Positions 6,328-10,938 of a stretch of 46,098 nucleotides of DNA are shown one piece after another. This DNA comes from Ruminococcus sp. Its GTDB lineage: Bacteria; Bacillota; Clostridia; Oscillospirales; Ruminococcaceae. The notes under the pieces are model-generated. The model did no database searches and was not told the DNA's origin. It saw nothing but the letters and a program-made list of their open reading frames with translations. The translations under genes and the position numbers were made by a program. Positions within the stretch are counted from its first letter, which is position 1. Each line of letters opens with the position of its first letter. The DNA lies in NCBI GenBank assembly GCA_017534835.1, contig JAFXVT010000048.1:1-46098 (forward strand), in the 5' to 3' direction.

Positions 6328-6550
6328 GACGAAGCGGAGCTTTGTCACTATGCACATTTTCAACATATCCGATTTGTGAACAATGCTGCGAATGTGAACC
6401 AACTCCGAACAGTTCAAGGTGATACTGTGAAACTTTGAGTGCAGACCTTGACAAATATACCGGAAATGGTGTAAAATTATATGGATAAGGGGAAAGCTGC
6501 ACCTATGTGGGGCGGCTTCCGTAAACCACGCGCGGAGGCGGAATGTAAAT
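6328..6550 (+). promoter_or_regulatory. promoter and leader of the sortase gene
   Basis: The gap between thiI and the sortase gene contains TTGACA (6448-6453) and TAAAAT (6472-6477) at an 18-base spacing. The leader has an imperfect hairpin at about 6491-6522 (GGAAAGCTGC against GCGGCTTCC) and a GGAGG ribosome site about 11 bases before the ATG. No convincing terminator follows thiI. Confidence 0.65.
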
Positions 6551-8053
6551 ATGAGCGATAACCTTAATGATAAACTGAATGAAGATAACGCCGCCGCGGA
6601 AGCTTCCCGAAGAGCCGAAAAAATAAGGGCTATCAGGGCTTCGCTGCACTCTGCCGGAGAGCCGGAGGCATCCGCTCCTGTCAGGGAAACGGCTCCGGAG
6701 CCTGCCGAGGAGAGCTTCGAGGCAAAGTTCAGACGTGTCCGCGAGGGCAGGCTTGCAGCTGTGAACACTGCTCCTGCTGAGAGCACTTCTGCTCCGGCTC
6801 AGGAGGAGACTGCTGCTGAGGCTGCTGAAGCGGCTCCCGTATCACGCGTGATACCGGCGGAAGCTCCTTCGGCTGAGATATTGCAGAAAGCTCCTGTATC
6901 GGAGCCTTCACCGCAGAGAAGCTATGCTGAGGCAGAGCCGATGATGGCTCCTCCTCCGAAGCGTACAGCTCCGGCACCCGTACAGCAGCGCGCTGCTGCT
7001 CAGAACGGTGCTCCTGTCCGCAAAAAAAAGAAGAAAAAGAAGCCGAAGACTCTCGGTCAGAGGCTGCGCGGACTGTTCCCTGAAAAGGGCGACAAGCCGC
7101 TTGAGATAGCCAGAAAAGTCGTTTTTCTGTGCTCGCTCGTTGCGATAGTTGTATGCGGATATTTCGTCGGCGACTACTATCTCGACCTCTGGCGCAGCAG
7201 TATGGAGTACAGCAATATCGACGATATTTACCGTACCTATACGCCGATACTCACTACTGTCGAGGAAACTCCGCAGGCTGACAAATACTACACGATGCTC
7301 CCCGGAGCCAAGAAGCTGCTCGACATCAATGACGAGGTAGTCGGCTATCTCACGATACCTACTATCGACGGCGACCCGATCGTCGCTTTCCCTGTCGTTC
7401 AGGCAGAGGATAACGATAAGTACCTCAACATCAACGTCAAGGGCGAGAATTCACGCACCGGCGCTCTCTTCCTCGATTACCGCAACAGCTTCGACCGCGT
7501 CGAGGATCACAGACTTGTCCGCAAGAATTCGGACAACCTTGTGGTGTACGGTCACAATATGGCGGACGAGAGTATGTTCGGCAATCTCAAGAATTACCGC
7601 CGTATCGACAATTATTACGAAAAGCACCCCATAGTCGAATTCAACTCGAATTATGAGATGTATACCTATAAAATATTCGCATTCTTCATCGTCGATTCGG
7701 ATGACGAGACGGATACCTACTTCGACTGCTGGAACCACCACGATTTCGACAGCGAGGAGGCTTTCTACGACTTCGTGAACAACGCAAAGCGCAGAACTAT
7801 CCGCAATACCGAGGTCGATGTGAAATACGGCGATCCGCTGCTGACGCTCTACACCTGCAATACCGATATTGTGGGCAATGAACGCGGCAGACTGATAATC
7901 ATGGCGCGCAGAGTGCGTCCCGGCGAGGACCTCTACGAGGGAACGAAGAACAGCAAGGTCAATCCGAATCCCCTCTGGCCGTCAGTTTATCAGCAGCAGA
8001 AGCCGGAAGCAAAATATGATCCGGATGCACCGTTCGTGCCCTACGGACCGTGA
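6551..8053 (+). CDS. class B-like sortase with long cytosolic tail
   Basis: Sortases are cell-surface cysteine transpeptidases that link proteins to the wall or to each other. This 500-residue protein has a roughly 185-residue N-terminal cytosolic part rich in Pro, Ala and Glu, a Lys run (RKKKKKKKPK, 157-166), one membrane helix (about 188-206), and an extracellular sortase domain (about 255-455). Catalytic residues are visible: His335 in VVYGHNMADESMFG, Cys436 in LLTLYTCNTD, and Arg447 in RGRLIIMARR. The YGHNM...FG and TLYTC patterns fit class B. The long tail is unusual. A second sortase follows 35 bases later. Confidence 0.93.
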   Translation: MSDNLNDKLNEDNAAAEASRRAEKIRAIRASLHSAGEPEASAPVRETAPEPAEESFEAKFRRVREGRLAAVNTAPAESTSAPAQEETAAEAAEAAPVSRVIPAEAPSAEILQKAPVSEPSPQRSYAEAEPMMAPPPKRTAPAPVQQRAAAQNGAPVRKKKKKKKPKTLGQRLRGLFPEKGDKPLEIARKVVFLCSLVAIVVCGYFVGDYYLDLWRSSMEYSNIDDIYRTYTPILTTVEETPQADKYYTMLPGAKKLLDINDEVVGYLTIPTIDGDPIVAFPVVQAEDNDKYLNINVKGENSRTGALFLDYRNSFDRVEDHRLVRKNSDNLVVYGHNMADESMFGNLKNYRRIDNYYEKHPIVEFNSNYEMYTYKIFAFFIVDSDDETDTYFDCWNHHDFDSEEAFYDFVNNAKRRTIRNTEVDVKYGDPLLTLYTCNTDIVGNERGRLIIMARRVRPGEDLYEGTKNSKVNPNPLWPSVYQQQKPEAKYDPDAPFVPYGP

Positions 8054-8088: not shown

Positions 8089-9027
8089 ATGAACAGCAAA
8101 GCAAAGCTTTTGGCAGCCTGTGCAGCACTTTCTGCGGCAGGTCTGCTCACAGCCGCATCACTTTCCGGATGCAGCGAAAAGGAGGAACACGTCATCGGCA
8201 AGGACGAGACCGTGACGGAGACAACTGTCGCCGAAGAGCCGCTCACCTTCCCGGTCTATAATGACTATGTCCCCTCCGAAAAGGGTATGACAGAAAAGGC
8301 AAAAATGCTCCGCAAATGGAACAAGGACATCATCGGCTGGCTGAAAATAGACCAGACAAAGGTGGATTACGCAGTTGCGCTCGACCCTGGCTATATCCCG
8401 GCGGATAAGCTCTTCTACGGCGGACAGGAGTACGAGGGGAACGAATACTACCTCTCGCACGGTCTCGACAGAAAGGAACACCGCGAGGGCTGCCTGTTTA
8501 TGGACTATGAGGACCGCTTCGGCAGCGTCGAGAAGGACCAGTCCGAGAATATCGTCATCTACGGTCATAATATGGCAAACAATACGATGTTCGGCTCTAT
8601 CAGAAGATACCGTCAGGATTATGGCTTCTTCGAGCAGTCTCCGTTCATCGAGCTGAGCTCGAATTACCGCGACTATGACTATGTTATCTGCTACTGCTGT
8701 ATCACGAGCGGTCATAACTATGCGGATTTCCGCTACTGGACAATGATAGAGCTCGACAACGAGGAGATATACAACGAATATATCACCTCCGCGAAGGCTT
8801 GCCAGCTCTTTGATACAGGCGTTGACGTGAAGTACGGCGACCCGCTTCTCACGCTCTCTACCTGCTATGCAGACGAGGATAACTCGCGTTTCATTATCAT
8901 TGCAAGAAGACTTCGTCCGGGCGAGAAGGCAGGAGACCTCTCCACGATCGAACGGACTGAGGAATACAAAAAGGCACACGCACCTACTGAGGCAGCGTCG
9001 GAGTCCTCCTCCGAAGCGCAGCAGTAG
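8089..9027 (+). CDS. sortase B-like protein with lipoprotein signal peptide
   Basis: The 312-residue product begins with a type II signal peptide: Lys residues, a hydrophobic stretch, then lipobox LSGC (Cys28), so the mature protein should be lipid-anchored outside the membrane instead of held by a helix. The sortase domain (about 75-280) has all catalytic residues: His160 in IVIYGHNMANNTMFG, Cys259 in LLTLSTCYAD, and Arg267 in NSRFIIIARR. It shares KYGDPLLTL with the upstream sortase, suggesting an old duplication. The C-terminus ends in a Ser/Glu-rich tail. Substrates are not obvious: no sorting-signal protein is seen in the window. Confidence 0.9.
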   Translation: MNSKAKLLAACAALSAAGLLTAASLSGCSEKEEHVIGKDETVTETTVAEEPLTFPVYNDYVPSEKGMTEKAKMLRKWNKDIIGWLKIDQTKVDYAVALDPGYIPADKLFYGGQEYEGNEYYLSHGLDRKEHREGCLFMDYEDRFGSVEKDQSENIVIYGHNMANNTMFGSIRRYRQDYGFFEQSPFIELSSNYRDYDYVICYCCITSGHNYADFRYWTMIELDNEEIYNEYITSAKACQLFDTGVDVKYGDPLLTLSTCYADEDNSRFIIIARRLRPGEKAGDLSTIERTEEYKKAHAPTEAASESSSEAQQ

Positions 9028-9060: not shown

Positions 9061-10515
9061 ATGAAGACAGAAACACCTTTTAAAAGGGCGGTGGCTGCTT
9101 TAGCCGGAACGGTACTTGCATTTACCGGTTCTACCTTTACAGCAGACGCCGCAGATACTACATCAACTGAGGCTGAGAAGAGCACGTCTGCCACTGAGAC
9201 CACATCTGCCGAGACGACAACTGAGGCTGAAAAGGCTGAGGAAGGCGAGCAGGAGATAGAGTGGTACAAGGCAAAGCTCGACGATTATGACGACAGCCTC
9301 TCTCTCATCAGCTATGAGGCTTCTCCCGAATCGGGAAGCACAGGAGCAAAGAAGAAAAGCAGGAAGCCGACACCTGTCGAGCTCAACGTTACAGGCGGAT
9401 ATGTCGGCGATATACCGTGGTTCGAGAGCGAGCCCGTCATCGAGTCCACTCCCGGAAAGTTCGCGATAGTGACCTACGGCTGGGGACACGGAGTCGGAAT
9501 GAGCCAGAACGGCGCCAATTTCTACGCTACCTACGCAGGCTGGACATATCAGGACATTCTCTTCCACTATTACCCGGATACATATTTGATGGATACGGGC
9601 ACGGCGGACGAGGAGGAGATCACCGTCAACGGTGTTTCCGGCGATGTTCTTTCAATGGTCTCGCAGATCGTGTTCAACGAAGTCGGCGGAAGTATGAGCT
9701 ATGAGGCTATCAAGGCTCAGGCAGTCGCTGTATACACCTACTGCAAGTACCACAACGGCGATTCCTCCGACCTGAGATGCAAGCCGCATCCTCCGCAGGT
9801 CGTTGTGGATGCTGTGAGCGAGGTGCTCGGTCAGGCGCTGTACTACAACAATGACTACGCACTCACGATGTTCTCCGCTTCGAGCGGCGGTGTCACCGCA
9901 AACTGCAATGAGGTCTTCTGGGCAGACCTTCCGTATCTGCGCTCAGTTTCGAGCGATTACGATGCCTGCTATGACCCGCATTACGGAACAGTTACATATG
10001 TCGATGATTTCCAGCTCAGGAATATGATAGAAAAGGCTTACAGCATCAAGCTCTCAGACGAGCCGGCAAGGTGGATACAGCCTTCATACTCCGATGCTAC
10101 GGGATATGTCACATACGTCAATATCGACGACCAGCTCACTGTGAAGGGCTATGAGTTCAAGCTCGCACTGGGGCTCAAATCGTCGAAGTTCAACGTGTAT
10201 TACACTCCCAGACCCGACGGTGAGGAGATACCGAACGGTACTTCCGAGATAAAGGTAGTCGATGCCGATTATCAGTTTACTCCCGGCATCGTTTACCCCA
10301 ACAGCCAGCCCACCGACATCGGCGGATACAAGCCCGCGCCCGAGGATCCTGAGGAGACCACTGAGGTCGAGGAGACTACCGGCGAAAACGGCGAGGAGAC
10401 CACTGAGCCAGCTTCGCAGGGCGAGGAAACTACAGAAACCACCACACAGGAGGCGAGCAGTGCTCACTCCGGCGGAACTACTGCTACAGAACCAACTACA
10501 GCTTCCGATACATAA
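9061..10515 (+). CDS. secreted SpoIID/LytB-domain protein, apparently circularly permuted
   Basis: SpoIID-type domains cleave denuded glycan strands or act as amidase enhancers. The 484-residue product has a signal peptide (cleavage likely near residue 31), a Thr/Glu-rich spacer, then WGHGVGMSQNGANFYATYAG (141-160) with DILFHYYPDTYL, followed by EAIKAQAVAVYTY (215-227), SSGGVTANCNEVFW (274-287), PYLRSV and a final GLKSSKF (371-377). In ordinary SpoIID the WGHGVGMSQ block comes last; here it is first. The C-terminal 60 residues are a Thr/Glu/Gly-rich tail. I chose the ATG at 9061 because AAAGAGGTGATAGCG precedes it; an upstream ATG at 9043 would bury that site. Confidence 0.85.
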   Translation: MKTETPFKRAVAALAGTVLAFTGSTFTADAADTTSTEAEKSTSATETTSAETTTEAEKAEEGEQEIEWYKAKLDDYDDSLSLISYEASPESGSTGAKKKSRKPTPVELNVTGGYVGDIPWFESEPVIESTPGKFAIVTYGWGHGVGMSQNGANFYATYAGWTYQDILFHYYPDTYLMDTGTADEEEITVNGVSGDVLSMVSQIVFNEVGGSMSYEAIKAQAVAVYTYCKYHNGDSSDLRCKPHPPQVVVDAVSEVLGQALYYNNDYALTMFSASSGGVTANCNEVFWADLPYLRSVSSDYDACYDPHYGTVTYVDDFQLRNMIEKAYSIKLSDEPARWIQPSYSDATGYVTYVNIDDQLTVKGYEFKLALGLKSSKFNVYYTPRPDGEEIPNGTSEIKVVDADYQFTPGIVYPNSQPTDIGGYKPAPEDPEETTEVEETTGENGEETTEPASQGEETTETTTQEASSAHSGGTTATEPTTASDT

Positions 10516-10547
10516 TAATACAGAATAAAGATACGATACTATATTGT

Positions 10548-10589
10548 AAGTCTTTGAGCGCCGGACAGGTCCGTGCGCTCAGAGACTTA
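10548..10589 (+). terminator. probable terminator after the sortase/SpoIID genes
   Basis: AAGTCT-T-TGAGCGC pairs with GCGCTCA-G-AGACTT around a short loop (10548-10589). The stem is long and stable but only a short T-poor stretch follows, so efficiency is uncertain. Confidence 0.6.
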
Positions 10590-10938
10590 TTTGCGATTTA
10601 TGAGAGGTGCGGCTTGGTGGGTGAATTTTCCCACTTTGAGTGAGCCGGAGGTGTCCCCGGGGGTGAAAAGAGGTGAATTTTGATGTTAAATGAAATTACG
10701 ATCTGCAAAAATGTTTGTTCTATTTTACTGGCTTGAGTTAATATTTGAACAAAATGTCTAAAATCTTAGATGTTTTGTTGAAATATTTTTACGCCTGATT
10801 TTCCCGTTTTACTTGAATCTAACCGCCTGACATTGTATAATGGATATACAGGGAGGTGAAAAGGGGTAAAGAGTTGCAAGTCTGACCCACTTTTAGGTGA
10901 AAGATTCCTGAGATCAAGTGAAAGTGAGGCGAAGCAGA
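10590..10938 (+). promoter_or_regulatory. mraZ promoter and GGTGAA repeat region (MraZ operator)
   Basis: This gene-free stretch controls the dcw cluster. The promoter is TTGAAT (10813-10818), 17 bases, TATAAT (10836-10841). GGTGAA occurs at 10620, 10662, 10672, 10855 and 10896. Two sets are exactly one helical turn apart: 10662 and 10672, and GGTGAA at 10855 with GGTAAA at 10865, the latter just downstream of the predicted start. MraZ proteins are known to bind short G-rich direct repeats spaced 10 bp in their own promoter, so autoregulation here is likely. The A/T-rich part 10690-10810 shows nothing else. Confidence 0.6.

Follow-up and report, generated by a model that had tools for sequence, protein, structure and literature searches.

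The window, a 46,098-nucleotide stretch of DNA from a Ruminococcus sp. genome, encodes a SpoIID/LytB-domain protein directly behind two sortases. We find that the parts of the SpoIID/LytB domain stand in rotated order within this protein, and we read the locus as follows.

6448..6477, + strand: sigma-70-like promoter match (11/12) before the sortase-sortase-SpoIID group, by consensus match (10 such matches in the region against 3.7 expected)
6551..8053, + strand: class B-like sortase 1, with a long N-part, a TM-like stretch and a sortase domain
8089..9027, + strand: class B-like sortase 2, with a lipobox-like LSGC close to the N-terminus; 33 bases separate its end from the SpoIID start
9061..10515, + strand: SpoIID/LytB-domain protein of 484 aa, read as circularly permuted from the ORF, profiles and doubled-target alignment
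9061..9450, + strand: signal-peptide-like start (A-D-A cleavage-like site) and Thr/Glu-rich linker, both by sequence reading
9262-9288, + strand: WYKAKLDDY in the Thr/Glu-rich linker, by sequence reading
9451..9582, + strand: block b1 at residues 131-174, C-terminal in an ordinary domain (strand, GWGHGVGMSQNGA, DILFHYY) and placed first here (profile b1, 99.4 bits)
9583..9615, + strand: short linker joining the old C-terminal part to the old N-terminal part
9616..10206, + strand: block b2 at residues 186-382, N-terminal in an ordinary domain (Glu207, EAIKAQA, SSGG, LGLKSS) and placed last here (profile b2, 345.1 bits)
9679..9681, + strand: codon of Glu207, the residue that aligns with the catalytic Glu101 of C. 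difficile SpoIID (numbering derived from the alignment)
10207..10512, + strand: Thr/Glu/Pro-rich C-terminal tail of 102 residues
10546..10590, + strand: strong hairpin 3' of the SpoIID gene (-32.2 kcal/mol, z -5.8), a possible transcription-unit end

The ORF, its coordinates and its motif positions agree with the original prediction, as does the placement of the gene behind two sortases, both encoded just upstream. The two sortases exceed the Pfam Sortase cut-off, and the His and the TLxTC Cys can be read from the sequence of each; against the class B sortase family TIGR03064 (cut-off 153.75) they score 152.8 and 110.9 bits, both under the cut-off. The lipobox-like LSGC suggests that sortase 2 may be a lipoprotein. 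The promoter-like match at 6448 and the hairpin at 10546-10590 together suggest a single sortase-sortase-SpoIID unit, and our promoter and terminator scan lists no + strand terminator at 10546-10590. Among the neighbours in the window, the NCBIfam cut-offs are exceeded by ThiI, RsmH and MurE but not by MraZ and a SpoVD-like PBP.

Within the protein, the motifs run from W141 to HYY171, then Glu207, EAIKAQAVAVYTY at 215-227, SSGG and LGLKSS, such that the GWGHGVGMSQ..HYY block (131-174) precedes the Glu207/EAIKAQA/SSGG/LGLKS part (186-382). An ordinary domain runs Glu/EALK, SSGG, GLKS, GHGVGMSQ, an order that this protein, being rotated, does not follow. Block profiles built from 47 permuted proteins (alignment A2), in which the numbering of this ORF begins 11 residues upstream of the 484-aa start, find b1 and then b2, each once, in keeping with the claim that every part is present in single copy. 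We therefore regard it as confirmed that the protein has one SpoIID/LytB domain in rotated order. A second WGHGVGMSQ block downstream, which the original prediction had named as evidence against permutation, is absent from the protein by the same profiles, and a second GHG block is found in none of the 270 two-block ORFs collected here. With duplicate fetches counted, 167 of these ORFs have the GHG block first and 103 have it last; the 244 distinct ORFs divide into 143 and 101.

Alignment to SpoIID proteins of known structure gives the same picture. When searched against PDB chains with phmmer, the protein matches the SpoIID structures 5i1t (C. difficile, E 1.5e-17) and 4rwr in three rotated pieces: residues 198-232 correspond to 68-102 of the 5i1t chain, 248-380 to 147-279, and 132-178 to 283-328. 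A circular permutant should also align lengthwise to an ordinary domain repeated in tandem. The protein scores 224-482 against canonical domains in doubled form, compared to 122-364 against single copies (five pairs) and at most 84 for shuffles (200 per pair, the same number of pairs), and its alignment path passes the copy boundary in 5/5 doubled domains. The gain from doubling is 87-159 in all 30 pairings of six permuted proteins with five canonical domains, every path crossing the boundary; three canonical queries gain 0 or 1 in 13/13 pairs, and the one path that crosses the boundary gains 1. These results support circular permutation of the SpoIID domain as the reading of this sequence. 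In the ordinary chain, an N-terminal strand and the catalytic Glu come first, followed by SSGG, GLKS and then GHGVGMSQ..HYY; here the short linker connects the old ends, and the new opening lies immediately ahead of the GHG strand. The same parts could thus refold together: order, conservation and doubled-target alignment are observed, and we infer that the permuted protein would keep the ordinary hand-and-arm SpoIID fold.

The short linker between the blocks also fits a different arrangement, in which each block is part of a domain of its own or the blocks pair across two chains as a segment swap. We consider this improbable, given that each block occurs once, that both keep the family residues and that the ends are joined alike in the 29 rows of the junction alignment (A3, in which the row for the window begins seven residues late). 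Separate folds are further disfavoured by the C-terminal part, which bears the SpoIID catalytic block, and by the score of the whole protein for the NCBIfam family SpoIID_LytB (TIGR02669), 104.7 bits against a cut-off of 83.3. The protein matches this family in separate stretches, unlike the unpermuted relative L064, which matches in one.

For the Pfam SpoIID family PF08486 (cut-off 23) the score is 21.7 by hmmscan and 25.6 in a six-frame genome search, and for the spore_II_D equivalog TIGR02870 it is 115 bits, under the cut-off of 234.75. An ordinary SpoIID on another contig of the same genome (L001/L287) reaches 288.6 bits for the latter model. The protein studied here is thus not the sporulation SpoIID orthologue, which the genome keeps elsewhere. 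It shares with the SpoIID proteins of known structure (5i1t, 5txu, 4rwr) the catalytic Glu, EALKAQA and GHGVGMSQ..HYY, but differs from them in being rotated and in lacking the zinc region. Its nearest relatives in trees are unpermuted SpoIIDs that also adjoin sortases (for example, L064-L069 and L239), but these keep the ordinary order. B. subtilis LytB is another SpoIID/LytB domain protein, thought to help an amidase. A third SpoIID-like protein in the same genome (L003, C4:6143-6340) has the ordinary order by eye, followed by peptidoglycan-binding-like repeats.

A survey of relatives, one of the checks proposed earlier, finds that the GHG block comes first in the genus and in nine further genera sampled from the family. 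The permuted protein occurs in 58/60 sampled genus genomes, in 56 of them as a single matched piece or truncated at a contig end and in 2 as two pieces in permuted order; the others, G035 and G046 (88 and 81% complete), have weak matches of the ordinary kind only. All 30 genus loci that were fetched, including that of the window, have the GHG block first. Matches of at least 281 bits spanning both blocks occur in 31/297 genomes of the family sample, spread over ten genera, and the 30 of these that were fetched all show the same order; another, more distantly related permuted protein comes from G060. Among named relatives, the order holds in 80/80 loci (80 kept of 405), mostly from Ruminococcus and including some R. 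flavefaciens strains, a count to be read with the scan patterns G[ML]SQNGAN and [MF]xxEA[IM]KAQA, which favour the Ruminococcus-type group. Misassembly or a broken, rearranged gene has nothing in its favour at the window, where the ORF is intact, and stop codons in the matched frame occur in few relatives (for example, L054 and L058). An assembly error was rejected because the same order recurs in many separately assembled genomes, R. flavefaciens strains included, as the 58/60 genus genomes and 80/80 named loci attest, and we assign an artefact a negligible probability.

In wider samples, spanning matches occur in 4/394 genomes of the order sample, two of them outside the family (G548 and G702; alignment A1, E <=1e-25). 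The junction profile (A3, E <=1e-13) matches both sides of the junction without a stop in 2/371 genomes of the class sample, namely the genome studied here and G1062, and in 1/378 of the phylum sample, the genome studied here. Remaining junction matches end by about position 86, as expected where GHG ends the protein, or contain stop codons (for example, G781, G819 and G875), and one further row covers the EALK side only. In the genus of G548 the permuted form is present in 7/11 genomes (6/6 of those that are complete) and in 14/80 genomes sampled from the family of G548, with the GHG block first in the fetched loci; in the genus of G1062 it is present in 1/6, G1062 alone. Alignment A1 comprises the window row plus 24/28 core stretches (three near-copies were left out, the window locus was replaced, and truncated L016 and L017 are absent). 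A2 comprises the window row plus 46/52 stretches, six more than 92% alike having been dropped, and is without L016, L017, L034, L035, L054, L036 and L058, the last two missed by the search expression.

The sortase neighbourhood is conserved along with the domain. Both sortases are present in 80/80 named loci, 78 in the order seen in the window and 2 swapped by best-hit order, and the whole thiI-to-pbp run is present in 46/80, the others being cut by locus ends or missing a match. In unpermuted relatives a sortase is near in 25/27 short loci (L064-L091 and L093; the permuted L076 and L079, and L092, also permuted, are not counted) and in 18/19 longer loci (L233-L251), 9/19 of which also have thiI. 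Loci of the second permuted group (L273-L284 and L286) have a sortase in 12/13 cases and thiI in 6/13; L285, from G1062, has neither. In the unpermuted relatives L087-L089 our own profile finds sortase and SpoIID in one protein. Such fusions and the shared neighbourhood point to an enzyme that would work with sortases at the wall. Rumen and gut bacteria keep the rotated form next to sortase genes, and the conserved sortase-SpoIID gene pair, fused in some genomes, connects the attachment of surface proteins with a wall enzyme of the sporulation type. The cellulosome of R. flavefaciens is described as anchored to the wall through a sortase-attached scaffoldin, and the scaffoldin ScaE as fixed there by sortase (PMC4081043); the sortase-SpoIID pair may therefore matter for fibre digestion.

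Several other architectures were seen among these loci. A single protein adjoining thiI (L243:2626-6600) carries CinA (three Pfam domains), a sortase and an ordinary SpoIID by Pfam, and another by thiI (L240:3859-6996) carries CinA and an ordinary SpoIID by Pfam and a sortase by our own profile only. In L234, L237, L238, L242, L244, L245 and L248, some of them cut by the locus end, four consecutive sortase ORFs precede an ordinary SpoIID. In the second permuted group, dockerin type I precedes the permuted domain, above the Pfam cut-off in L274, L276 and L279 and below it in L280. In L076 and L253-L258, an N-part of about 350 residues and a TM-like stretch precede the permuted SpoIID; this N-part looks like degenerate CinA by eye and is without a Pfam match in L076 and L253.

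The conserved residues bear on whether the protein is an enzyme. C. difficile SpoIID is described as a lytic transglycosylase whose E101, the counterpart of Glu207, is required for glycan cleavage and sporulation, the E101A protein being inactive (PMC6221140), and the general SpoIID motif is given as GVVxxEMP/S (PMC6934232). Glu207, G140, G142, H143 and G146 are invariant in 18/18 Ruminococcus-type rows and 18/18 rows of the second group, and Glu207, Lys218, Gln220, Leu293 and the GHG motif are common to permuted and ordinary groups (L232, a single row, is not tabulated). The protein is probably a surface lytic transglycosylase that would work with class B-type sortases. As the best explanation of the locus we propose, with good though incomplete confidence, a secreted, permuted SpoIID/LytB enzyme that would cleave glycan beside these sortases. 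After export, Glu207 would cleave MurNAc-GlcNAc bonds of stripped glycan strands, as in SpoIID; cleavage near the two upstream-encoded sortases could open or trim the wall where sortase-attached surface proteins go, and the permutation would shift the point where the N-terminal tether enters the domain. Counted against this explanation are the missing zinc region, the hmmscan score below the Pfam SpoIID cut-off (the six-frame score lies above it) and the absence of a sortase from 1/13 second-group loci and from L285.

The missing zinc region also speaks for a rival reading, in which the permuted domain would be folded but non-catalytic, serving as an amidase helper in the manner of LytB or as a sortase scaffold or substrate. 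The C. difficile zinc site is described as H134/C140/H145/C146, with C140A and H145A inactive in assays (PMC6221140), and phmmer finds no aligned counterpart in our protein of the 5txu region that holds these residues (127-170); the site is, for its part, described as absent in Bacilli (PMC6934232). A non-catalytic role is in line with the score below the spore_II_D equivalog cut-off and with a SpoIID-like protein reported among the potential sortase substrates of C. acetobutylicum (PMC4877998). We nevertheless consider it unlikely, though worth keeping in mind, because neither permuted group shows any variation at the catalytic Glu and, as regards a substrate, no sorting signal is visible by eye at the C-terminus. 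The catalytic reading is the one we retain, and a rotated, conserved wall enzyme suggests that the old SpoIID fold can be rewired in nature. Within the open-licence literature, no paper pairs SpoIID with "circularly permuted" or "circular permutation", and SpoIID is in no title among papers pairing "circular permutation" with "lytic transglycosylase".

To place the permutation in the history of the family we built trees, all of which omit near-copies and duplicate fetches, the 80 named loci, and rows that are truncated or lack the b2 start. Two SpoIID trees hold 102 rows of 136 and 100 of 174 (from the latter, L207 and alternate remote canonical rows were removed as well), a sortase tree holds 77 of 88, and a joint tree holds 66 of 87 (also without the long-branch L058, L240, L274 and L281 where present). 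In the 102-row tree the Ruminococcus-type group falls within a set of sortase-linked ordinary proteins (98/91), and in the 100-row tree it joins the L066 group (100/92); in the joint tree L236, L248 and their kin are nearest to it instead (95/89). Most likely, the lineage in which the Ruminococcus-type permutation arose already had, at this locus, a SpoIID linked to a sortase. L232 and the second permuted group are placed apart from the Ruminococcus-type group, and changes between permuted and ordinary number 2 in the 102-row tree and 3 in the 100-row and joint trees.

That all permuted SpoIIDs go back to one permutation event, with later spread or replacement, would account for the shared opening point of the permuted groups that were read, which argues either for a single origin or for a single permissive loop. 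A single permuted clade is not rejected by AU tests (p 0.103; 0.088 with all rows; 0.118 without L232; 0.061 joint; four tests on three data sets), nor is a clade of the second group with L232 (p 0.341). Against a single event, the best trees need 2 or 3 changes, none of 200 bootstrap trees has a single change, and the adjacent sortase gives a like picture with 4 changes, of which starred branches require 3 (there L051 prevents the Ruminococcus-type sortases from grouping entirely together). We regard one event as a real possibility and lean against it. Best trees and AU tests together favour several origins without rejecting one, a third origin being least certain. Our slight preference is that the same domain at the thiI-sortase locus was permuted two or three times independently, with the same opening place: in Ruminococcus and nine other genera of its family, in a different family of the same order (a single genome of the class having a similar case), and perhaps in G060. 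The sortase link may select for shifting the tether point of the enzyme. A natural permutation with unpermuted counterparts at like loci offers close pairs for testing its origin and effect.

The segments flanking the domain vary among relatives. C-terminal tails of the 13 listed Ruminococcus-type permuted proteins measure 0-7 residues in 7/13 and 45-126 in 6/13, and of 11 listed unpermuted relatives 8 stop 3-5 residues past b1 and 3 have long tails; since some unpermuted relatives have long tails too, the tail is not a clear gain of permutation. The linker motif W[WY]KAxLxxY is found in 52 of the 244 distinct two-block ORFs (50 permuted, 2 unpermuted). To see whether it marks many secreted proteins, the genome studied here was scanned with one strict DNA pattern for it, whose single match is the SpoIID gene itself. 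The motif is also present in one neighbour ORF at L093, a SleB-type hydrolase by eye.
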